The notes beneath the pieces were generated by a model that worked only from the letters and a program-made list of their open reading frames with translations, ran no database searches and was not told where the DNA came from. 64,000 nucleotides of DNA, taken from contig CAIZWN010000005.1 in the NCBI GenBank assembly GCA_903936705.1, forward strand, positions 1 to 64,000, written 5' to 3'. This DNA is from an uncultured Myxococcales bacterium. Lineage in GTDB: Bacteria > Myxococcota_A > UBA9042 > DTJE01. The translations under genes and the position numbers were made by a program. Of this stretch, positions 2,258-14,075 are shown in pieces; the stretch's first letter is position 1; every line of letters starts with the position of its first letter.

Positions 2258-3697
2258 TTAACTTCGATCGCGAATTGCCTTGACTAGCGCGACCACGCGA
2301 CCGGCCACCGCGGACGGGGTGCCTGACCTGTCCAAGTCTCTAAGCATCGTCTTCAGCCCACGGTTGTGGAAGTACGTGTCGTAGTTGGCAATGACACGAT
2401 GAAGTAGTTCTTTAGCCTTGCTGCCAGTACAGCCCACCGGAACCACGGCCAGACCGATTCTTGAAGCAATCGCAAATTCGCTTTCCATGCCATCCGCCGT
2501 AACGATGCTGTTTGAAGAATCATGTTTGTTCCCGAACAGGAACACCGCAACACCGGCGTGCGAGATCATCTCTTCCCGGTAGGCTGTCCAGCGCCGGTTT
2601 CGTTCTGTGGGATCGGCAATCCCCTGCGGGAATGGCCTCAAGATGACCCGCTCTTGCAGCACCTGGGTTCCCTCCCTGTCAAGTTGTTCTAGTACGCCGT
2701 TGACGACGAAGGGGCCGACCCCAAGACCGAAGCCGGAGACGATGCCGAACCCGGCCTCAACCAACTGTCTTGAAATCTCGGCTATTAGAACTTGAGCGGT
2801 TGACTCGTCGAAGGGAGCGTAGTCAGCCGCACTTCCGGAAACGAAGACACGGGACATGCGAAACCGACGATGAATTCGCTGGATCACCTCCGTGTACTTG
2901 GCAAAGGAATCGAAGAGAAGACCGATGATGCCGTACCGCTTGAGGTCGCGGACCTGGAGATCCTGTTTAGCGCATGCGTAGAGGTACTTCTCGTTTGTCT
3001 TGAAATCCGCCCGCTGAACCTTTCGGAGGAGGCAGTAATGCTCCCGTCGGTTTTCGCCTAGAAGGACACGAATTCTGGCAAGGATGTAGTTGAGATTCGG
3101 ATCGCTGAAACTGAAGCCGATGAATAGAAAAGTCTTCGATACAAGGTCTCCCTGGAGCGCCAAGGAGAAAAGGTGGCGCGTTGATGAGTCGTAGGACTCG
3201 TAGTCGTCTTTGGTCAGTACCGCTTTGCCCGGACGAGATACGTCGCCGTGCATCTTGTACACGATTGCATCGCGCCCAGGGGCGGTCGTTGTGAGGCTAT
3301 CGGGTTCAATCTTCACGTCGGGGATTCTCTTGCTTACCTTGAGCGCGTCCTCGATGAGGGTGTCGTAGTTGGTTGTCCAGTAGGTTCTGATTGGGAGAGA
3401 AGCCAGTATACGATGGTTCTCGGTCGAGGCAGCCCGCTTCGAAAACTCGTTGACCAGGGCTTGATTGATCCGGTTACGACCACCCCTTTCGTTGACATGG
3501 TACTGGGCGAGGGTGACAAGGTCATCCTCGCGGTCGACATCGAGCCCCACGTCCGTGGCAATGCCTCGCATGAGTCCCTTCCAGTCGACCATGCCCGCAG
3601 GGATCGAAAGTCCCGCGCCAGCGAAAACAGCGGCATTCTCATCGTGAAGAGCCTGGACATAGGTTTCGATGAAGGAGTCAACAGGGTCCTTAGGCAC
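2258..3697 (-). CDS. thsA: Thoeris defence effector ThsA (SIR2-SLOG NADase)
   Basis: A 479-aa protein, close to the 476 aa of the Bacillus cereus homologue. Residues ~1-260 form a SIR2-like NAD hydrolase: glycine loop FAGAGLS near residue 28, TTNYD with Asn110, KMHGD with His150, and GFSFSDPN near 195. Residues ~280-479 form a SLOG (STALD) domain starting RVFVSGSA, with a glycine-rich GFGLGVG turn. In known Thoeris systems the SLOG domain binds a cyclic ADP-ribose isomer made by ThsB and activates NAD depletion. The chosen GTG start has a GGAGG ribosome site 7 nt upstream; a TTG at 3784 gives a longer unlikely form. It lies downstream of thsB on the same strand, 160 bp apart. Confidence 0.92.
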   Translation of the reverse strand: MPKDPVDSFIETYVQALHDENAAVFAGAGLSIPAGMVDWKGLMRGIATDVGLDVDREDDLVTLAQYHVNERGGRNRINQALVNEFSKRAASTENHRILASLPIRTYWTTNYDTLIEDALKVSKRIPDVKIEPDSLTTTAPGRDAIVYKMHGDVSRPGKAVLTKDDYESYDSSTRHLFSLALQGDLVSKTFLFIGFSFSDPNLNYILARIRVLLGENRREHYCLLRKVQRADFKTNEKYLYACAKQDLQVRDLKRYGIIGLLFDSFAKYTEVIQRIHRRFRMSRVFVSGSAADYAPFDESTAQVLIAEISRQLVEAGFGIVSGFGLGVGPFVVNGVLEQLDREGTQVLQERVILRPFPQGIADPTERNRRWTAYREEMISHAGVAVFLFGNKHDSSNSIVTADGMESEFAIASRIGLAVVPVGCTGSKAKELLHRVIANYDTYFHNRGLKTMLRDLDRSGTPSAVAGRVVALVKAIRDRS

Positions 3698-3857
3698 GAA
3701 ACACCTCCAGGAGTCGGCAGGAGAGCCGGGACGTACGACGTGCAGCGGGTAACGATCTTGGCACGTTCCATGGCCGGTTGCCAAGGGCGCTGCGTCCGTC
3801 CAACGACAGTCTGCTTGTGCGGAGAGGCGCCGAAGGTCCCGAGGATGGGGCCACCCG

Positions 3858-4355
3858 TCAACAGTTGTTACGGATCTCGATGGCCTCCTCCACCCACTCG
3901 TCGATGTACTCCTTGATGTGGTCGTAGACGTTGACGCTTCCGGTGTAGGGCGGAGTGTACGTCTTCGCGACCGAGGACAGTTTCCTGCCGCTCGTCAGGG
4001 TGAAGTCGGAGAAAGGATTGTCGCCCTTGTTCGCTTGGTTTCCACGGCTGTCCTTCAAGTTGTGGACGTAGATCCCGAGTACACCCTTCTTCGCATTCCA
4101 CGCCTGCTCGATCTCGTACTTGATCCACTTTCGGCCCGCGGTGTTCTCCCCGATGAGGACGATGGCGCAGGATCGCCCGTGCAGTTGGTCATCGATCCAC
4201 TGGGCGATCGCCTTATCCCCACCCTTCTTGACGGCTTCCCAGTCGTTGTCCGTCACGGGGGTGTTGCCCTCGACAACCCCCATGTTTCGGACTTGGGATG
4301 CACGCCACGCATCGGCCTTGTGGTGGAAACTGAAGAACACGCGCCGAGCCATCAT
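3858..4355 (-). CDS. thsB: Thoeris TIR sensor ThsB
   Basis: A 165-aa TIR-like protein (DUF1863). The N terminus RRVFFSFHHKADAWR is the diagnostic ThsB strand/loop; CAIVLIGENTAGRKWIKYEI carries conserved Glu81, aligned with the functional Glu of characterised ThsB; LGIYVHNLKD and GDNPF complete the domain. In established systems ThsB responds to phage infection by making a cyclic ADP-ribose isomer that activates ThsA. The first of two tandem ATGs is chosen because GGGAGGAG lies immediately upstream. It comes first in the thsB-thsA unit. A TACACT hexamer upstream (4397-4402 region) could be a -10, without a clear -35. The single ThsB is intact; a second ThsB-like gene survives only as a fragment at 1862-2239. 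Confidence 0.9.
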   Translation of the reverse strand: MMARRVFFSFHHKADAWRASQVRNMGVVEGNTPVTDNDWEAVKKGGDKAIAQWIDDQLHGRSCAIVLIGENTAGRKWIKYEIEQAWNAKKGVLGIYVHNLKDSRGNQANKGDNPFSDFTLTSGRKLSSVAKTYTPPYTGSVNVYDHIKEYIDEWVEEAIEIRNNC

Positions 4356-5211
4356 TCTCCTCCCATCTTGGGAAAACTGCCGGAGTGTACCACCCCGGAG
4401 TTCGCTTGGATGACAGCCACAGGCCATCTGGGCCGCCTTCATCCCAGGTAGGGTATCTGGGTGGTGCGACACGCCGTTTGCCCACGGCGAGGAGGTCGCC
4501 GAAGACGACGTCAATACGAAAGGGTCGGTGTGCGCCTTAGGGCCTTGGGGCCCTGGAGCCAGGCAGCCGTTGCCCCTTTACGGAGCTGTTCTCGTGCCGC
4601 CCAACTACCTCTGGGCAGCGCAGTCTGTCGCTACCTTCGATCTGGCTGAGAACCAAGATTCAAGACGTCCGACCGGGGGCGCGAGATGTCGTGGGACCGG
4701 GCTGCGGATCTTCGGAATTTGGACTCCGCTCGGGTAGAGCCAGGCCAGATCGCAGGGGAACGAACAGGCTCTTCAGGTGATATGCAGCGGGGGAAAAGGG
4801 GGCGAAGGCCGGATGGCTGGCGAGAGGGAGGAGCGGGTCGGAGTGGACGGGGAACTGGGGTTATATGCACCGAGGCGGTCACCGGAGGGACATGGCGTCC
4901 AGCGCGCAGAGGACCCAGGACGGACCGCGGTTCAGAACGTGGGTGCAGATCTGGGTCGTGCGGACGGAACGGTGGCCCGGGAGTTCCTGGACACTTCGGA
5001 TGTCGGCTATCGGAACCACCAAGGCCACTGGGTCTGGCCCCTCCACACTGAACTGCCCTCTTTTCGACCCGCAACGCGGGCTTGCGCCTCCCGAAACCGA
5101 CCAAACCGCCCCGAATATGGTGATAAGAGTCATGAGCGGGACCGTTCGCCTGCCCTGGCGACGCCGCTCACGACGGTCTTCCCCGTTTCCCACCCCACAT
5201 GGAGGTCCCAG
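4356..5211. other. 856-bp interval with no intact gene
   Basis: Between thsB and the ubiquitin-like gene I find no reading frame with convincing start, ribosome site and conserved motifs on either strand. The only recognisable content is the tail of a tyrosine recombinase on the minus strand (4882-5004). The rest is GC-rich and probably decayed mobile DNA plus the promoter region of the conjugation cassette. Confidence 0.6.
4882..5004 (-). pseudogene. Relic C terminus of a tyrosine recombinase (IntI-like), catalytic Tyr lost
   Basis: The minus strand reads DIRSVQELPGHRSVRTTQ followed by ICTHVLNRG. This matches the end of integron/phage integrases, usually DIRTVQELLGHxDVxTTMIYTHVLNRG. The conserved GH is kept, but the catalytic Tyr of IYTHV is Cys (ICTHV). 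Upstream of DIR the same frame shows no integrase homology, so only about 40 codons survive. The enclosing frame runs on to 5682 but is a shadow of the conjugation genes. It is evidence of an older insertion or integron-like element. Confidence 0.7.
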
Positions 5212-5418
5212 ATGCGCGTGAAGGTCCTGAAACTCGGTTCGTCCGCCCACGAAGTGGATGCCACCCCCGGTTCCACCGTCCAGGAGGTGCTCGACAAGGC
5301 CAGCCTGCCGCACGGCGGGCACGCGATCAGCGTCAACGGCCTGGGCGCCGGGCTGTCCACGGCCCTCGGCGAGGGCGACATCGTGACGCTGGTGCCCAAG
5401 GTCGAGGGTGGCCGGTAG
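5212..5418 (+). CDS. Ubiquitin-like beta-grasp protein (MoaD/ThiS-like) ending GG-Arg
   Basis: A 68-aa protein with a MoaD/ThiS/ubiquitin-type beta-grasp pattern: strand MRVKVLKLG, a turn, TPGSTVQEVLDKA helix, a middle strand (HAISVNG), GDIVTLVP final strand and a flexible tail KVEGGR. The Gly-Gly is the site expected to be adenylated by the E1 enzyme, but one Arg follows it, so maturation by a peptidase would be needed first; the JAMM protease gene two positions downstream is the obvious candidate (inference). A GGAGG site precedes the ATG. It heads the set Ubl, E2-like, JAMM, E1, with 198 bp before the next gene. Alternative roles in sulfur transfer cannot be excluded, but no sulfur-pathway genes are nearby. 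Confidence 0.85.
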   Translation: MRVKVLKLGSSAHEVDATPGSTVQEVLDKASLPHGGHAISVNGLGAGLSTALGEGDIVTLVPKVEGGR

Positions 5419-5616
5419 CCGAAGCGCTTCCAGCCACACCGAACTGCCCTGCCTGACCGCGATCACCGTCCACCCGCCCCCGGACACCCACGTTAGCTCC
5501 GTAAACGGCCGGTTTCCGGCGCAGGGGCAAGCACGCGCGAGCGCGTTAAGGGAATCCCGGGCGGGTACGGGTTCGCGGTCGGGCAGGGTAGCCCCGCAAA
5601 CCAGGAGGTCCCGACC

Positions 5617-7059
5617 ATGTTCGACAACGTGGCCCACCCGGGCCTCAAGGCGCTGCTGGCGTTCGAGGCCACCCGGCACCAAGTCCCGATGGAGTACCGC
5701 GAGACGGACGCCTTCCCGCCTCCGTCCACGCCGTTCGTACCGCGCGTCGAGGTCCTGGCGTACTGCGGAGGCGAGGTCGGCGGCCTGTCCATCGCCCTGC
5801 CCGGAGGCAGCACGGCCTACGACGGACCGCTGGCCGCTGCATGCGGCCTGCTGGATGAAGAAATCCGGGTGGGCGACGTTCTGGTCGGCGGCATCACCGG
5901 CAACCGCATCGTGCTGCGCCTATCACTGGAAGCGCTGTTCCACCAGGCGGACCCGCCGTCAGACGCCACGCTGGACCCGACGACGCCCACCGTCAACCTG
6001 GCCCACCAGGTGTTCGACGCAATCATGGGGAAGGCCCTGTCCCAAGCTGTACAGAGCGTTCGCGCCCACGACTGGCGCACCGAAGCGGACACCTACACGC
6101 AGATGAAGTTGACCATCATGGACCGCAGCACCCGCGAATGGCGGGAGGAACTGTCCCGGAACGAGCGCAACATCGACGAGAAGACCTGGGAGATCATGGG
6201 CCTCGTCACCCGCAACGAACGCCTGCGGGAGGCCCTGTCCGGCTTCCAGGACGCCACGCGCATGGCCCACCGGCGCCGGGCCGTCGAGGAACACGGCGAG
6301 ATGGTGAAGATGCTGGGCGCTGGCGCCATCCACAACCTGCACTGCAACGACGGCCAGGTGGACTTCGAGACAGACAGGGTCACCATCGACTACGACGACT
6401 ACGACTACGTGCTGGGCCCGTTCCGGGTGGAAATGAACCTCGCAGAGTCCGCGGTGCGCATCACCGGGTTGCCCGGCGCGCCGAAGGTCGACGGTTACTA
6501 CCACCCGCACGTCGCGTCGGGAGGCACGCCCTGCCTGGGCAACATGGCCCCGATCATCGCGAAGACGATGGGAGCGGGCGACGTGGTCGGCGCCATTGGC
6601 ACGGTGCTGGAGTTCCTGCGGTCCTACAACCACGGGAACGGCTACGTGGACCTCATGCGCTGGAACCCCGACTACGAGGACGACGACGACAAGCACGAGT
6701 CCTGCTTCGACAACAGTTCCTGCCACGACTGCGTGGTCTGCTCGGACAGCGACTGCCCATACCGAGACGGGTGCGAGCACCGCTGCTGGGAAAACCACGA
6801 CCGCCAGGACTGCATCGACTGCGGGGACTGCGGGTACCGCGACACGGCCATCCAGCAATGCCGCGAGGAACACGAGGACACGCCGTGGGCGTGCACCGAA
6901 TGCAGCAGTTCGTGCTCGTACGCCGGCGACATCTCGGAATGCCACGACAGCCACAACGGGGGTCGCTGCGGCGACTGCCCGCTGACCGACTGCGTGCGGC
7001 ACCCGCGCGACGACAAGGAGAACGACGACGCGACCGAGGCCGAGGCCCCGGCGGCGTAG
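5617..7059 (+). CDS. E2-like ubiquitin-conjugating domain protein with Cys-rich C-terminal tail
   Basis: A 480-aa protein with three visible parts. Residues 1-~150 are an unassigned N-terminal region and ~150-225 are charged and helical. Residues ~230-345 resemble an E2 (UBC) fold: YVLGPFRVEM strand, then GYYHPHV and TPCLGNM, matching the E2 HPN...CL signature with His296, His298 and candidate catalytic Cys306, followed by a helix (VGAIGTVLEFLRSY) in the place of the post-Cys E2 helices. An acidic linker DYEDDDD leads to residues 363-459, which carry 18 Cys in 97 residues, many as CxxC pairs with interspersed His, fitting a multi-zinc domain. Start ATG has AGGAGG upstream. JAMM follows after 9 bp. 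The E2 call comes from motif and context; the zinc-binding call is inference. Confidence 0.78.
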   Translation: MFDNVAHPGLKALLAFEATRHQVPMEYRETDAFPPPSTPFVPRVEVLAYCGGEVGGLSIALPGGSTAYDGPLAAACGLLDEEIRVGDVLVGGITGNRIVLRLSLEALFHQADPPSDATLDPTTPTVNLAHQVFDAIMGKALSQAVQSVRAHDWRTEADTYTQMKLTIMDRSTREWREELSRNERNIDEKTWEIMGLVTRNERLREALSGFQDATRMAHRRRAVEEHGEMVKMLGAGAIHNLHCNDGQVDFETDRVTIDYDDYDYVLGPFRVEMNLAESAVRITGLPGAPKVDGYYHPHVASGGTPCLGNMAPIIAKTMGAGDVVGAIGTVLEFLRSYNHGNGYVDLMRWNPDYEDDDDKHESCFDNSSCHDCVVCSDSDCPYRDGCEHRCWENHDRQDCIDCGDCGYRDTAIQQCREEHEDTPWACTECSSSCSYAGDISECHDSHNGGRCGDCPLTDCVRHPRDDKENDDATEAEAPAA

Positions 7060-7068
7060 GAGGGACCG

Positions 7069-7839
7069 ATGAAGTACACCACCGGTATCACCCAGGTCTG
7101 GCTCGACCTGGCCGCCCACGAGAAGTTGTGGGCGTGGACCCGGATGGCCAAGGGCGAGGTCAGCATGCTGGGCCTCGTCGAGGACGGCGACGGCGGCCCG
7201 GCGATCACCGACCTGTTCCTGATGCGGCAGACCTGCACGGCGGCCAGCACCGACATGGACCAGGCGGACGTGGCCCGGCTGCTGTTCGACCTGGGGGCCG
7301 CCGGCATCGAGGGCCAGTTGCGGGCCTGGGTCCACAGCCACGCGGACATGGCGGTGTTCTGGTCCGGGACCGACGACAAGTGCATCGAGGGCCTCGGCGG
7401 CAACCCCTACATCGTGTCGCTGGTCGTGAACCGGAAGGGCGACGTCCGGGCACGTGTCGACGTGTTCCAGCCGCTGCGGATGGTCATCGACGACGTGCCG
7501 GTGAAGATCCGCGTCCCCGACCTGGGCCTCGAGGGGCCGTGCAAGGCGGAGTTCATGTCCAAGGTCACCGAGGTCCAGACCTTCCCGGCCCTCGGCCTGG
7601 GCCTCCCGGGCTGCGTGCCGTCCGGGCTTCCGTTCAACGGGCAGTCCGACCTGTTCGGCAGCCGCCCGCACCGGCGGTCGTTCGCGATGATGGACCTGGA
7701 CGAGATGGAAGCGGCCGTCTACCGGGGCGAGATGTCCGTCGACGAGTACATGCGGGCGGTGGACGGCGACGCCTTCATCGACCCGTTCGTGGACACCGGC
7801 AACGAGCCGGGGGAGGTGGCCGATGCCCGGCGTGCGTGA
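7069..7839 (+). CDS. JAMM/JAB-family metallopeptidase (deubiquitinase-like)
   Basis: A 256-aa protein with a complete JAMM zinc motif: Glu30 in KGEVSMLG, then HSHADMAVFWSGTD giving His89-x-His91, Ser99 and Asp102 with exact HxHx7Sx2D spacing. JAMM enzymes cleave ubiquitin-like proteins after Gly-Gly; here the likely substrates are the Arg-capped tail of the 5212 protein and its conjugates. The C-terminal ~110 residues are unassigned. GGAGGG precedes the ATG, 9 bp after the E2-like gene, and the gene overlaps the E1 gene by 17 bp, indicating one transcript. The protein is distinct from the RadC further downstream, which also has the JAB fold. Confidence 0.9.
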   Translation: MKYTTGITQVWLDLAAHEKLWAWTRMAKGEVSMLGLVEDGDGGPAITDLFLMRQTCTAASTDMDQADVARLLFDLGAAGIEGQLRAWVHSHADMAVFWSGTDDKCIEGLGGNPYIVSLVVNRKGDVRARVDVFQPLRMVIDDVPVKIRVPDLGLEGPCKAEFMSKVTEVQTFPALGLGLPGCVPSGLPFNGQSDLFGSRPHRRSFAMMDLDEMEAAVYRGEMSVDEYMRAVDGDAFIDPFVDTGNEPGEVADARRA

Positions 7840-8536
7840 AGCCGTCCTGAAGTTCCCGGACCCCGACGGCGTCCGCGAGGTCGCCGTCCTGCCCGAGGCC
7901 GGCTTCGTGCGGCAGCGAGACATCCTGCCCTGGGAGAAGCTGCAGGCCGCCCGGGTCACGGTCATCGGCGCGGGGGCCGTCGGGTCGTTCACGGCGCTGT
8001 CCCTGGTCAAGATGGGCGTGGGCACCGTCGAGGTGTACGACTTCGACACCGTGTCGGTCGAGAACCTCGGCCCGCAGTGGTTCCGGATGTGCGACCTGGG
8101 ATGGCCCAAGGTCGAGGCCCTGGCCGACCAGCTGGCGGCGTTCGGCGGCAACGTGGTCGCCCACGCCGAACGCTTCCTGGCCCAGCCGGTGTCGGGCATC
8201 GTGGTCTGCACCGTGGACTCGATGGACGCGCGCATCGCCGTCTGGCGGCACATCCGCAAGTGCCGGCGCGTCGAGTTGTTCCTGGACGCCCGCATGGGCG
8301 CCGAGGTCGGGAAGGTCCTGGCCGTCCGGCCGAACGACCCGGAGGACTGCCGGTTCTACGAGGCCGAACTGTACCCTTCCACCGAGGCCCTGCGCGCCCC
8401 GTGCACGGCACGCAGCACCATCTACTGCGCGTCCGGGCTGTCGGCGTTCCTGGCCGCCACCGTCGGCAACCACCTGGCCGGCCGCCGATACCGCCGGGAA
8501 CTGGTCGTGGACTTCCGGCAGGGCATCCTCATCTGA
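7823..8536 (+). CDS. E1-like ThiF/MoeB-family adenylating enzyme
   Basis: A 237-aa single Rossmann-type E1 domain. VTVIGAGAVGS (residues 46-55) is the nucleotide loop; VYDFDTVSVENL with Asp73/Asp75 and Asn81 is the ATP/Mg region; WPKVEAL places the conserved Lys at 96; CTVDSMDAR holds the conserved Asp132. Cys194 in APCTARST is the best candidate for the catalytic thioester Cys. It should adenylate the Ubl C terminus and pass it to the E2-like Cys. Length is that of minimal ThiF enzymes without an extra C-terminal domain. The ATG lies 17 bp inside the JAMM gene. It resembles ThiF-type E1s of plasmid and phage conjugation cassettes. Confidence 0.9.
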   Translation: MPGVREAVLKFPDPDGVREVAVLPEAGFVRQRDILPWEKLQAARVTVIGAGAVGSFTALSLVKMGVGTVEVYDFDTVSVENLGPQWFRMCDLGWPKVEALADQLAAFGGNVVAHAERFLAQPVSGIVVCTVDSMDARIAVWRHIRKCRRVELFLDARMGAEVGKVLAVRPNDPEDCRFYEAELYPSTEALRAPCTARSTIYCASGLSAFLAATVGNHLAGRRYRRELVVDFRQGILI

Positions 8537-8806: not shown

Positions 8807-9451
8807 ATGCACGAGTTGCGGGAACGCATGGCCGCGTTCGGCGCGTCGGTGCTGTCCGACGCCGAGGTCGTGGCCTTGATCATCGGTACCAATGCCGACC
8901 CCGCGCTGGGTCGGCGCGTCCTCGATGCCGTGGGCACCCCCCACGGCCTGCTGAGCCGGCGGCTGCGCGAGTTGTCGGGCATCCCGGGCATCGGCCCGCA
9001 GCGGGCCCAGCGGCTGATGGCCGCCATCGAACTGGGCCGACGCGCGGCCGTCGCGATGGAACCGGGCCGGCCGCTGATGTCCGCTGGCGACGTCGCCGAC
9101 CGGCTGGCCCGGCTGAAGTCCGAGCCCGTCGAGCAGTTCGTGGCGATCAGCGTGAACGCCCGGAATCGCGTGCTGGGCGAGTGGACCGTCGCCACCGGCT
9201 GGGAGTCCGGTGTGAACCTGACGCCCCGGCAGGTTTTCGTGCTGCTGATGAAGGAGGGCGCCAGCCGCGTCCTGCTGGCCCACAACCACCCGTCGGGCGA
9301 CCCGACGCCCAGTCCCGAGGACGTGCGCTTCACGCAGCGCCTGGTCGAGGCCGCCCGCACCCTGGACATCCGGGTTCTAGACCACGTCATCGTGGCCAGC
9401 GGCGGCTTCGCCAGCATCCGGGAGCAGGTACGGGAGATGGAGTTCGGGTAG
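8807..9451 (+). CDS. radC: RadC-family JAB-domain protein
   Basis: A 214-aa RadC homologue of typical length. The N-terminal part has a helix-hairpin-helix-like segment (SGIPGIGPQRAQRL), and the C-terminal RadC/MPN domain has HNHPSGDP with His159, His161 and Asp165. RadC proteins are often carried by mobile elements; despite the name, a repair role is poorly supported. An AGGAGA site lies upstream of the ATG. It follows the small membrane peptide and precedes the annealing-protein and nuclease pair, so it may belong to the recombination module of the island rather than to the conjugation cassette. Confidence 0.9.
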   Translation: MHELRERMAAFGASVLSDAEVVALIIGTNADPALGRRVLDAVGTPHGLLSRRLRELSGIPGIGPQRAQRLMAAIELGRRAAVAMEPGRPLMSAGDVADRLARLKSEPVEQFVAISVNARNRVLGEWTVATGWESGVNLTPRQVFVLLMKEGASRVLLAHNHPSGDPTPSPEDVRFTQRLVEAARTLDIRVLDHVIVASGGFASIREQVREMEFG

Positions 9452-9553
9452 TCCACCCTCGCACGGGCCATCCGGATCCGGTTGTTCGATCTTTCCCCCC
9501 TGTCGACCCCGGGATTCCAGTCGACCCCCACCCCCAACAACAAGGAGCACCTC

Positions 9554-10105
9554 ATGTCCAACGTCATCCCATTGCGTTCCTCCTCCCAGGCCGCCAACGC
9601 CGGGCTCCAGCCCCACCCCGACGCCTCGAACCCCGTCGCCGCCCTCGTGGCGACGATCGACAAGGCCCTCGGCGACACCTGGTCCTTCGACCTAGTCCAT
9701 CACGAGGTCGTCGGTGACGAAACCATCGTTTTCGCGAGCCTCGTCATCGACGGCAAGCACCGGATCGGCATCGGCGGCACCAGCGTGAAGGGCTCGCTGG
9801 TGGACCGGCTGAACGCCGCCACCCTCGACGCCCTGACGCGCGCCGGGGCGTGGATGGGGATCGCCGCCACGACGGCGACGGTGCCCCAGGCGACGCCCGA
9901 ACCGGAGCCCGCCAGCCCGGCCGAGGCCGGGTCGAGAATCACCCGGAAGCAACTGGACTACGCCATCAGCCTGGCCCGGGACCGCGGCGTCGCCCGGGAC
10001 AAGCTGGCAGCCCGGTGCCTCGCCGAGTTCCAGAGGAAGCCCGAGTACCTGACGCGGGCGCAGGCGTCCGAGTTGATCGAATCCCTGAAGAAGGAGGCCG
10101 CGTGA
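9554..10105 (+). CDS. Rad52/22-like single-strand annealing protein (predicted)
   Basis: A 183-aa protein. The N-terminal ~110 residues follow the Rad52/Sak pattern: W-S-F strand, a hairpin ending LVIDGKHRIGIGG, then a helix LNAATLDALTRAGAWMG typical of these annealing proteins. A Pro/Ala/Glu linker (~115-130) leads to ITRKQLDYAISLARDRG and LTRAQASELIESLKK, a helical tail often seen after phage recombinase domains. The ATG at 9554 has AAGGAGC upstream. Its stop overlaps the exonuclease start (TGATG), a coupling expected for a phage-type two-component recombination pair. The assignment is from fold-level pattern and context. Confidence 0.65.
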   Translation: MSNVIPLRSSSQAANAGLQPHPDASNPVAALVATIDKALGDTWSFDLVHHEVVGDETIVFASLVIDGKHRIGIGGTSVKGSLVDRLNAATLDALTRAGAWMGIAATTATVPQATPEPEPASPAEAGSRITRKQLDYAISLARDRGVARDKLAARCLAEFQRKPEYLTRAQASELIESLKKEAA

Positions 10106-10917
10106 TGTCCGCCATCCGCACGATGCCCCTGGCGGACCTGCGCCAGGGCCTGCACGTCAGCGTGTCCCAGATCAAGTCCTGGCTGATGTGCCCCCGCAAG
10201 TACCAGTACCAGTACGTGCTGGGCACCGAGCCCGCCCACCGTCCGGTTGCCCTGGCGTTCGGGACCGCATGCCACCGGGCGCTGGAGGCGTTCTACGAGT
10301 ACCTCCAGGCCCACGGTCGCAAGCCGCCCGTGGATCAGGTGCAGACCGCGTTCGTGGACCGGTGGGCGGTCGAGGTCGGCGACCCGCTGCCGCTGCTGTT
10401 CGACGAGGACCAGACGGCCGATCAGGCCAAGGACCAGGGCGTGGCCCTCCTCGGCGCGTTCTACCAGCAGGGCTTCGTGCCCGACGAGGTGATCGCGGTC
10501 GAACAGCCGTTCGGCATCGAGTTAGTCGATCCCGAGACGGCCGAGGTCTGCGACATCCCGATGGTCGGGGCCATCGATCTGGTCGCCAGGCACCAGGGCC
10601 GGGTCTGGATGATCGAACACAAAACCGCGGCCCGTCGGTTCACGGCCGACCGCATCGCCTGGGACTTCCAGCCCACCAGCTACCTGTTCGCCGCCCGTAA
10701 CCTCGGCCTCGACAACCCTGCCGCCGCCTTCCAGATCCTCCTCAAGACGAAGAAACCCAGTTGCGAAACGATTCCCGTGAACCGGAACCACGAGTCCGAG
10801 ATAGAGATGCTGGACACGTTCCAGCACGCCCTGCGCGGCATCGAGGCCGGTGCCTTCCCGAGGAACCGGGGGTGGGGTTGCGCGGACTGCCAGTTCAAGC
10901 ACAAGTGCGGGGGGTAG
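10105..10917 (+). CDS. RecB/Cas4-like PD-(D/E)XK exonuclease with Fe-S cluster
   Basis: A 270-aa nuclease. Motifs in order: S-x-I-x-x-W-L-M-C-P-R-K-Y with Cys29, His57 (RecB motif I), Asp158 in GAIDLV, Glu171/Lys173 in IEHKT, Gln189...Tyr193 (QPTSY), and a C-terminal CADCQFKHKC giving Cys259, Cys262 and Cys268. The four Cys match the [4Fe-4S] arrangement of Cas4/AddB nucleases. Its start overlaps the annealing-protein stop, so the two probably act as an exonuclease-annealase pair. No cas1 or cas2 is present, so a CRISPR adaptation role is unlikely. Confidence 0.88.
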   Translation: MSAIRTMPLADLRQGLHVSVSQIKSWLMCPRKYQYQYVLGTEPAHRPVALAFGTACHRALEAFYEYLQAHGRKPPVDQVQTAFVDRWAVEVGDPLPLLFDEDQTADQAKDQGVALLGAFYQQGFVPDEVIAVEQPFGIELVDPETAEVCDIPMVGAIDLVARHQGRVWMIEHKTAARRFTADRIAWDFQPTSYLFAARNLGLDNPAAAFQILLKTKKPSCETIPVNRNHESEIEMLDTFQHALRGIEAGAFPRNRGWGCADCQFKHKCGG

Positions 10918-12227: not shown

Positions 12228-12713
12228 ATGCTGGCAACCGCCACCGGGCGCTCTCCTGAGGAGAGCCCCGGCATCAATCCAGTTGGCGAAGGACTGCCCC
12301 GACGGTGGGCGACCATGGAACCGTCGGTCGATGCGTCGTGGTGGACCCACGACGAGACCCGCAAGCACCTGCGGGTGGACGCCAGGACTCTCGCGGCGAG
12401 GATGCACGAGACGCCTCCGGACATCGAGAAGCCCTGGATCAACTACGGAAAACCCACTAGGCCCTACTACCGCTGGATCGCCAGCAAGGTGGACCGCTGG
12501 TGGATCGAGGTGAACGAATGGCGAGCATCGACAAGCGACAGGACGGGTACCGCGTGCGCTGGCGCGACCCTGACGGGGGCGCGCGGTGCCGGCAGTGCCC
12601 GGACCTCGCGACGGCCCGCAGGCTCCAGCGCGACGTCGAGCGCTGCACCGCCGAAGGACGGCGGTGGACGCCTCGCGACGTTCGTGAAGTCCCTGAACTC
12701 GAGGACGTCCTGA
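12228..12713 (+). CDS. Excisionase-like DNA-binding protein overlapping the integrase
   Basis: A 161-aa frame. Residues ~38-100 read WWTHDETRKHLRVDARTL, then a proline-containing segment and PYYRWIASKVDRWW, which is the Xis/AlpA-type winged helix-turn-helix pattern found beside tyrosine integrases. The start has GGGAGGACAG upstream. The domain ends near 12530, but no stop occurs in frame until 12711, so the last ~65 codons overlap the integrase N terminus in another frame and have a low-complexity Ser/Ala/Thr composition. It probably controls excision direction of the island. The start and domain are believable; the long tail could be a by-product of the overlap. Confidence 0.6.
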   Translation: MLATATGRSPEESPGINPVGEGLPRRWATMEPSVDASWWTHDETRKHLRVDARTLAARMHETPPDIEKPWINYGKPTRPYYRWIASKVDRWWIEVNEWRASTSDRTGTACAGATLTGARGAGSARTSRRPAGSSATSSAAPPKDGGGRLATFVKSLNSRTS

Positions 12714-13642
12714 TGGCCTACGTCCGCGACAAGGCCCGCGTCCTGGCCCCGGGCACAGCCGAGCGCTACGGTCGGAACCTGGTCATCTTCCTCCGCTGGC
12801 TGAAGCAGCGGGAAGGCGGCAAGCGGAAGCTCTACCCGGACATCCTGACACGGAACCTGCTGGCCGAGTTCTACGAGCACCTGGCCATCAAGGGGCGACA
12901 CGGCCGCCCGCGCCAGGACTCCACCCGCCGCAAGATCGTCGAGGTGGTGCAGCTGGCCTGGGAGTGGGCCTACAACGACGACGAACTGGCGGAAGGCGTG
13001 CCCTCGCCGCGCAGCATCGAGATGCGGCGGAAGGAGGGCGCCCCTACCGTCGCACCGACCTGGACCGAGATGGACGCCGTGATCCACGCGTTCCCCGAGG
13101 GCTCCTGGCAGCGCCAGCTGGCCATCGTCCTTCGGTTCACGGGCCTTCGCGTGCAGCAGGCGCTGGGGCTCCGGTGGGACGACGTGGACATGGACGAGGC
13201 CACGCTGACGATCCGTGGCGAACTGGGGAAGAGCCGGCAGGAGCGTCGCGGCCGCATCGTGCCCCTGTCCCCGCATCTGATGAGCATCCTGGCCGGCTGG
13301 GGGAAGCGGGAAGGCTACCTGATCCCCACGAACCGCCAGGCTCGCCGGGAGCGACTGGCGAGGCCCCGCGACCTGGGACGGGCCTGGGACCGGGCGGGCG
13401 TGCGAAAAGGGGCGTGGGAGGGACGCCCCCATCACGCCTTCCGCAAGGGGTTCGTGTCCGAGCTGCGGCGGGCGGGGGCCGACCCCGACGTCGTCGAGGT
13501 GCTGGTGGGCCACAGCCTGGGTCTGCGAGGCGTCTACACGGACCCGGACGCCCTGCCCATGAGGGAAGCGGTCGCGCTCATCCCGCCGATCCAGGAATCC
13601 AGGGTGGTGCTGCGGCTGGAGCCGAAGGAAGTGAAGAAGTGA
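12518..13642 (+). CDS. int: Tyrosine integrase of the ssrA island
   Basis: A 374-aa site-specific recombinase. It has an N-terminal arm-binding-like segment (~1-50), a SAM-like core-binding domain (~60-160) and a catalytic domain with Arg211 (FTGLRVQQALGLRW), Lys238, His306-x-x-Arg309 (HHAFRK), His332 (LVGHSLG) and the nucleophile Tyr340 (RGVYTDPD). All catalytic residues are present. The ATG is preceded by GAGGTGAA. It lies 77 bp from the 3' end of tmRNA and points toward it, the usual geometry of an integrase next to its own attachment site. It probably catalyses insertion and, with the excisionase-like protein, excision. Confidence 0.93.
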   Translation: MASIDKRQDGYRVRWRDPDGGARCRQCPDLATARRLQRDVERCTAEGRRWTPRDVREVPELEDVLMAYVRDKARVLAPGTAERYGRNLVIFLRWLKQREGGKRKLYPDILTRNLLAEFYEHLAIKGRHGRPRQDSTRRKIVEVVQLAWEWAYNDDELAEGVPSPRSIEMRRKEGAPTVAPTWTEMDAVIHAFPEGSWQRQLAIVLRFTGLRVQQALGLRWDDVDMDEATLTIRGELGKSRQERRGRIVPLSPHLMSILAGWGKREGYLIPTNRQARRERLARPRDLGRAWDRAGVRKGAWEGRPHHAFRKGFVSELRRAGADPDVVEVLVGHSLGLRGVYTDPDALPMREAVALIPPIQESRVVLRLEPKEVKK

Positions 13643-13719: not shown

Positions 13720-13760
13720 TGGTGGAGGCGGGGGGAGTCGAACCCCCGTCCAGAAGTTGT
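13720..13760. other. Probable attachment site (tmRNA 3' acceptor/T-arm)
   Basis: The tRNA-like 3' end of ssrA, including the T-arm palindrome GGGGGAGTCGAACCCCC, adjoins the integrase gene. Such symmetric T-arm segments are common tyrosine-integrase targets. The gene is complete here, as expected if the island restores the 3' end on insertion. The crossover segment cannot be set without the second copy. Confidence 0.55.
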
Positions 13761-14075
13761 CCAGGCCAGGATACTACGTGCGTAGTCTTGCAGTGTTTCT
13801 TGCCTTGTCAGCCTGCGACACGCCGACGAGGTGCTTCCCACTTTCGTCTTGAGATTGTTGACCAGGTGGGGAGGTCAACAACCAGCAGTCCTGTGGCTTT
13901 TACACCTTCCCGGCTACTGGACGCCTTACCGGGGTAGATGTCCCTTACGCCGCGTAGGCGTACGAGAAATTGGTATCGGTGTTGGCGGTTAAGCCTTTCC
14001 TGATTACTGACCGGGACCAGGCCCCGGGCACGCACCGTAACTCTTTTCAGCCTCTGTCGAAACCGGAACGCCCCC
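13720..14075 (-). ncRNA. ssrA: tmRNA (ssrA), one-piece, tag ANTDTNFSYAYAA
   Basis: The 5' end GGGGGCGTTCCGGTTTCGAC at 14075 pairs its GGGGGCG with CGCCTCC before the A-CCA at 13720-13723, giving a 7-bp acceptor stem with one G-U. The T-arm is GGGGGTTCGACTCCCCC-like. The resume codon GCC is at 13986-13984 and the tag frame reads ANTDTNFSYAYAA with TAA at 13947-13945. The RNA rescues stalled ribosomes and marks the nascent chain for proteolysis; a clpP gene is in the same window. Length is 356 nt, normal for a one-piece tmRNA, and the CCA end is encoded. Confidence 0.95.

Follow-up and report, generated by a model that had tools for sequence, protein, structure and literature searches.

UBL-E1-E2-JAB operons on mobile elements are known, and extra metal-binding proteins have been predicted in some of them, according to the survey by Iyer, Burroughs and Aravind (2006; PMC1779556). 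The operon described here lies in a window of 64,000 nucleotides, the whole stretch of DNA that was analysed, from an uncultured Myxococcales bacterium (contig CAIZWN010000005.1, positions 1 to 64,000). It resembles the row 6d operons of that survey in carrying the four-component set of UBL, E2, JAB and E1 on a mobile element. However, the row 6d E2s are described there as lacking the classical conserved His and keeping one downstream of the Cys, whereas the window E2 has HPHV upstream. Neither an E2-fused tandem C4 array nor the phage replication-module version of such an operon was found in the passages of PMC1779556 that were searched.

The BilABCD system likewise encodes a UBL, an E2, a JAB and an E1. 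BilA consists of two UBL domains and the active site of BilB is CEHH (PMC11354881). In contrast, the window encodes a single UBL domain of 67 aa and no tandem of the BilA type, an HPH-C E2 with a putative finger tail, and a short E1. The ubiquitin operon of Caldiarchaeum includes a separate small C3H2C3 RING E3 for which activity was shown (PMC5654768). It shares with the window the Ub-E1-E2 cascade, a JAMM protease and a zinc protein at the E2 step, zinc being predicted in the window; its zinc protein, however, is a separate RING, whereas the window tail belongs to the E2 chain itself and is no RING.

In crAss-like and Flavobacterium phages E1 homologues annotated as thiamine biosynthesis protein or ThiF are found, as in the window, beside uncharacterised upstream genes, and in a neighbourhood of primase, uracil-DNA glycosylase and exonuclease. 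Unlike the window, these loci are annotated as thiamine biosynthesis or hypothetical. At the three loci fetched (L163, L164, L165) the E2 profile had no match and no Cys-rich ORF was present. In the open-access papers searched, neither E2-fused tandem C4 arrays nor this phage class were described, an absence that is weak evidence.

The UBL cassette and its genomic context

The cassette consists of four adjacent genes on the + strand with intact catalytic motifs, in an order that is common to many phage loci. The first gene (5215..5418) encodes the UBL, a ThiS/MoaD-like modifier of 67 aa that ends with KVEGGR (Pfam ThiS, E=1.6e-7); homologues in phages and bacteria have the same position and C-terminal Gly motif. 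It is followed by the gene for the E2-like protein and by that for a JAB/JAMM isopeptidase homologue (7069..7839), in which the HSH-x7-S-x2-D motif HSHADMAVFWSGTD was read directly and whose position is conserved. The match of the latter to Pfam Prok-JAB (E=0.023) is below the cut-off of the profile. The last gene (7823..8536) encodes a ThiF/E1-like activating enzyme (Pfam ThiF, 2e-19) with 29-51% identity to the E1s of phage and bacterial operons, and the Cys of its PCT motif is invariant in 7 of them.

Downstream of the cassette, also on the + strand, are genes for a RadC family protein (8807..9451; Pfam RadC 2.9e-32, PHROG DNA repair protein 6.9e-27), a probable single-strand annealing protein (9533..10105; weak match to PHROG 3290, E=0.0072) and a PD-(D/E)XK exonuclease of the RecB/Cas4-like type (10093..10917; Pfam PDDEXK_1 9.8e-29, PHROG exonuclease 9.2e-30). 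Directly upstream of the operon, on the - strand, lies a Thoeris anti-phage pair, ThsA (STALD; 2258-3784, 1.7e-185) and ThsB (TIR-like; 3858-4514, 8.6e-75). A recombinase-like ORF (12500-13642, +), recognised by eye and matched by no profile, adjoins a tmRNA gene (13720-14075, -), which suggests integration at ssrA. A duplicate of the tmRNA 3' end (att core) was not found inside the window; as the contig begins at the start of the window, the element may be truncated on the left. The cassette thus looks to be carried by an integrative element with defence genes and phage-type recombination genes.

The E2 domain

The second gene of the cassette (5617..7059, +) encodes the E2-like protein of 480 aa, which was analysed with AlphaFold models, fold searches and two alignments (A8 and A10). 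It comprises an N-terminal region (residues 1-123), a helix/coiled-coil region (124-233) for which long helices are predicted, an E2 fold (235-361), the Cys tail (363-459) and an end under low constraint (460-480). The E2 (UBC-like) catalytic domain (6319..6699, +) contains the motif HPHVASGGTPCLGN, with Cys306 at 6532-6534. We take this motif to resemble the eukaryotic HPN..C signature, the Asn position of HPN being His in the window E2. The pattern is HPHVxxxGxxCxGN, and in an alignment of 57 homologous domains the catalytic Cys306 is invariant and HPH is conserved to at least 90%.

In the AlphaFold model of residues 229-480 the pLDDT is 94-98 across most of 239-348. E2 enzymes occupy the top five places of the Foldseek results (best E 0.024, probability 0.99), and all 50 matches listed by VIA-align are E2 enzymes as well, with Z of 6.0-6.9 over about 100 residues; taken alone, Z values below 8 and these Foldseek E-values are modest. 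The bacterial E1-E2-Ubl structure 8tz0 is among the fold-search matches of the window. Model and fold matches agree on a UBC fold, with the catalytic Cys placed after an HPN-like motif. Because the modest fold scores combine with the motif and the operon, the domain upstream of the tail can safely be regarded as a genuine E2, and the E2-like identity given by the first-pass annotation is borne out by the fold matches and the invariant Cys306 of the 57 homologues. Searches of the window E2 with Pfam and NCBIfam profiles returned no family, including Pfam Prok-E2.

A tail of tandem C4 units

Residues 363-459 of this protein (6703-6993) contain 18 Cys and 6 His in 97 residues, behind the acidic linker DYEDDDDK, in agreement with the first reading of the sequence. 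The whole protein has 22 Cys, and none of 20,000 shuffled versions of it had 18 Cys in 97 residues. Sixteen of the 18 tail Cys form a tandem array of four consecutive C-x8/10-C-x2-C-x2/4-C units, an arrangement that was not obtained in any of 20,000 shuffles of the tail. Unit 1 (6703..6756, +) is C363-x8-C372-x2-C375-x4-C380, unit 2 (6784..6831, +) is C390-x8-C399-x2-C402-x2-C405 and unit 3 (6859..6915, +) is C415-x10-C426-x2-C429-x3-C433; in each of them 4/4 Cys are invariant in 7 homologues, giving 12 invariant Cys across the seven aligned tail-bearing proteins. Unit 4 (6940..6993, +; C442-x8-C451-x2-C454-x4-C459) is found in most tail-bearing homologues but not in the three-unit protein of phage contig L083. 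The two Cys outside the units, C369 and C386, are not conserved: C369 is replaced by Ser in the sister species, and C386 is retained there but missing from more distant homologues. No tail His is invariant in the alignment of tail-bearing homologues. The tail is strongly acidic, with a net charge of -16.

Selection on the tail was measured against the same-genus copy in G002 (contig CAINDP010000125, an uncultured Myxococcales MAG), from which the window tail differs in no Cys other than C369. With dN 0.048 and dS 0.52 the tail has a dN/dS of 0.09, compared to 0.137 for the E2 core and 0.67 for the final 20 aligned codons beyond residue 459. Given the dN/dS of 0.09, the tail is real coding sequence under strong purifying selection. 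The number of C4 units varies from 3 to 5 among homologues, and the total of tail Cys is exactly 20, 16 and 12 in L027, L084 and L083, corresponding to 5, 4 and 3 units. Such variable unit numbers would be in line, by analogy, with finger arrays that bind proteins or nucleic acids.

A repeated unit with four conserved Cys is what defines a tandem C4 metal-finger array, and judged from its sequence the tail is most likely an array of four small fingers, probably with one Zn2+ per four Cys. The multi-zinc module proposed by the first-pass annotation is therefore well supported at the sequence level by the three to five tandem C4 units and the strong selection on them. In the model with the deepest alignment the pLDDT of the tail is about 69-83 in units 1-2 and drops to 51-57 beyond residue ~430; the finger geometry of the AlphaFold model is of moderate confidence and is not claimed here. 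Searches with the tail and with the full-length protein against Pfam, NCBIfam, PADLOC, PHROGs and PDB sequences returned no meaningful family for E2 or tail, the best PDB sequence matches of the tail being LIM and BCL6 zinc fingers (E 0.08-0.17).

The spacing had been described from the start as no canonical RING, which holds: the tail has 0 matches to RING, FYVE, PHD, B-box and NZF patterns. A RING finger is ruled out for the window tail by its spacing, with 0 matches to C-x2-C-x9-39-C-x1-3-[HC]-x2-3-[CH]-x2-C-x4-48-C-x2-C. An eight-ligand binuclear RING unit was not found either; the repeats have four Cys each and the number of units is variable.

Distribution of the E2 family and its tail

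A sample of 377 genomes of the phylum contained the E2 family in 13 cases and the tail in 4 (G000, its sister G002, G020 and G058). The tail of G020 lies at a contig edge with JAB and E1 downstream, and G058 has two tail-bearing copies with five units each. Many E2 copies in another family of the class stop just past the acidic stretch (...WDPDYNSDDD), as does the E2 of G124. Broken or partial E2 copies (L003, L013, L020, L071) occur in G001, G002 and G058, some of which diverge abruptly within the gene; they represent rearrangements or assembly breaks. At L027 a caspase-like protease gene (3075-5501, identified by eye) is located just upstream of a tail-bearing E2.

Searches of viral contigs, using the E2 core and the E1 as queries, added about 90 loci; they yielded 168 E1 relatives, and 80 of these were retrieved. 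The window-type tail is present on four phage contigs, L073 (172.7 kb), L083 (182.7 kb), L084 (180.8 kb) and L170 (132.8 kb), so that homologous arrays of 3-5 units occur on E2s of distant Myxococcota and of four phage contigs. A scan with A9 recovered L073 and L084 together with a chance match in the wrong frame (L168). No matches were obtained by tblastn of the window E2 against plasmids and phages, by tblastn of the L075 E2 against phages or by tail-only scans of viral contigs. The JAB of L073 (frame 5632-6616) has a C-terminus with VCGQC followed by one more Cys, possibly a single finger on the protease.

The first-pass annotation had proposed an alignment of homologues as a check, and the outcome is divided: the Cys are kept in all occurrences of this type of tail, but the tail itself is missing from most of the E2 family. 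The tail is therefore accessory, and catalysis and transfer do not need it.

In phages the UBL-E2-JAB-E1 operon is often located beside replication and recombination genes. Among 99 proteins scanned downstream of phage E1s we found Sak4 (5), Erf annealing proteins (4), primases (7), helicases (5) and SbcC (3), and PDDEXK nucleases are also among the genes downstream of phage E1s. The window has the probable annealing protein, the exonuclease and RadC near the cassette. Because replication and recombination genes sit just downstream of phage E1s, we infer that the cassette is perhaps linked to recombination proteins.

Unrelated Cys modules on E2s of the same family

At least four unrelated Cys modules were found on phage E2s. 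CxxC-x6-CxC fingers are present in L074, L106, L115, L122, L123, L136 and L089, CxxC arrays with FYVE-type binuclear spacing in L078, L113 and L127, zinc-ribbon-like CxxC-x14-CxxC modules in L075 and L094, and a fourth type of tail in L098. In the E2 homologue of L116 (4066-5157) a CxxC-x6-CxC module is located near the N-terminus. Taking 8 Cys per 50 aa as the threshold, the E2 is Cys-rich at 15 of the 72 distinct phage loci that have one, compared to 1 of the 538 other ORFs from the same loci that are 150 aa or longer (Fisher p 1.7e-13, a value that overstates the number of events because related phage loci are not fully independent). The sole exception outside the E2s is the UBL of L131 (6653-7147), which has an acidic-linked Cys-rich C-terminal tail after GGG; in a search of the same viral loci for a separate Cys-rich gene replacing the tail, only this UBL qualified.

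On an E1+E2 tree, made by a quick method with SH-aLRT support only, the tail labels require about 9-10 changes by gain or loss, and well-supported branches make at least 3 of them necessary. Myxococcota copies without a tail group with window-type tails at 96% support, and at least one loss of the tail is therefore likely there.

Lysine depletion of the tails

The window tail contains 0 Lys and 6 Arg in its 97 residues, and 11 of 18 tails in the E2 family are free of Lys. Lys and Arg were compared in the most Cys-rich 50-aa windows, with other genes of the same loci as controls. Lys makes up 1.5% in the tails versus 6.3% in the control Cys-rich windows (p=1e-9), and Arg 7.8% versus 6.5%. In tail-less E2s, Lys accounts for 6.3% of the C-terminal extensions. 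As an exception, the window-type tail of L083 is basic and Lys-rich (8 K). Lysine deserts are known in the ubiquitin system, where they prevent adventitious ubiquitylation (PMC10169902). Tails that are poor in Lys and keep Arg are as expected for a part near the charged E2, which suggests that the tails are within reach of E2~UBL, although an acidic finger composition in general could account for some of the depletion.

Discussion

We propose that the window encodes an E2 with a finger array in cis, carried in a mobile cassette, in which the fingers recruit the substrate; the explanation as a whole stands at about an even chance. After activation by the E1, the UBL would be passed to the E2 at Cys306. 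The array of fingers, placed on the acidic C-terminus of the E2, would act in cis as a recognition module that keeps either a substrate or a complex, for instance the recombination machinery of the neighbouring genes, beside the E2~UBL thioester. It would thus carry out the substrate-delivery half of the work of an E3, without activation of the RING type. The JAB would trim the UBL precursor and reverse the modification. The acidic charge of the array speaks against simple DNA binding and is in keeping with a protein surface. The built-in E3-like module suggested by the first-pass annotation survives in part: the fusion in cis to a genuine E2, the repeated independent fusion of unrelated Cys modules, the Lys depletion and the FYVE-type spacing of three sister tails speak for it indirectly, whereas the RING spacing is absent from the window tail. 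Because the tail is not a RING and most relatives lack it, we interpret it as the half of an E3 that recruits the substrate, fused to the E2.

A structural or docking role, in which the fingers hold E2 dimers together or serve as a docking site for E1 or JAB and never contact a substrate, would yield much of the same evidence. Strong conservation of the tail, the fixed partners encoded in the operon and the long coiled coil, which already suggests an oligomer, agree with such a role. However, tail-less relatives retain the same E1 and JAB genes, so that docking to these proteins needs no tail, and unrelated modules take the place of the tail in other members of the family. We consider this role unlikely.

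A RING-like E3 fused to the E2, the tail binding the E2~UBL face and activating transfer allosterically, would explain the fusion in cis, and it draws on the binuclear FYVE-type spacing of the sister phage E2s of L078, L113 and L127, the last of which also has a sub-threshold Pfam RING match (E=0.03). It seems rather improbable for the window tail, which lacks the spacing of RING, FYVE, PHD and B-box, has no invariant His and is built from 3-5 repeated units.

That the C4 sets hold a [4Fe-4S] cluster or similar, sense oxidation or damage and in this way gate the E2 is very unlikely. All ligands are Cys, unit 2 contains CxxCxxC, and the nearby Cas4-like nuclease ends with CADCQFKHKC, presumably Fe-S-like. 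However, the spacing differs between the units and is not the ferredoxin pattern C-x2-C-x2-C-x3-CP, and zinc-ribbon (CxxC-x14-CxxC) or FYVE-like spacing is seen in other tails of the family. A metallothionein-like metal store or detoxifier fused to the E2 by chance would account for the high Cys content but is far-fetched, as the units are regular and fixed, selection is stronger than on the E2 core, and Cys modules recur specifically on E2s and not on other genes of the same loci.

For the family we extend the proposal of substrate recruitment by the fingers as follows, tentatively and with somewhat less than even confidence. Phages and mobile elements would carry a large, largely overlooked class of UBL systems that do without separate E3s. 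In these, swappable metal fingers fused to the E2, and rarely to the UBL, would choose the substrate, and the tails would be lysine deserts against self-modification. Candidate cassette types are tandem C4 arrays, CxC fingers, FYVE/RING-like clefs and zinc ribbons; some of the fused clefs may be E3-like domains that arose independently, and the substrates are perhaps replication or recombination proteins.

How E2s of prokaryotic UBL systems, mostly without recognisable E3s, choose their substrates is the question that the finger-tailed E2 addresses. With tail-bearing, tail-less and differently tailed relatives at hand, a role in targeting is open to deletion and domain swapping. The phage homologues, located among replication and recombination genes, suggest a proviral role that is distinct from the known anti-phage ones. 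If unrelated metal clefs have indeed been fused repeatedly to E2s, the family would provide a natural model for the origin of the E2-E3 partnership.
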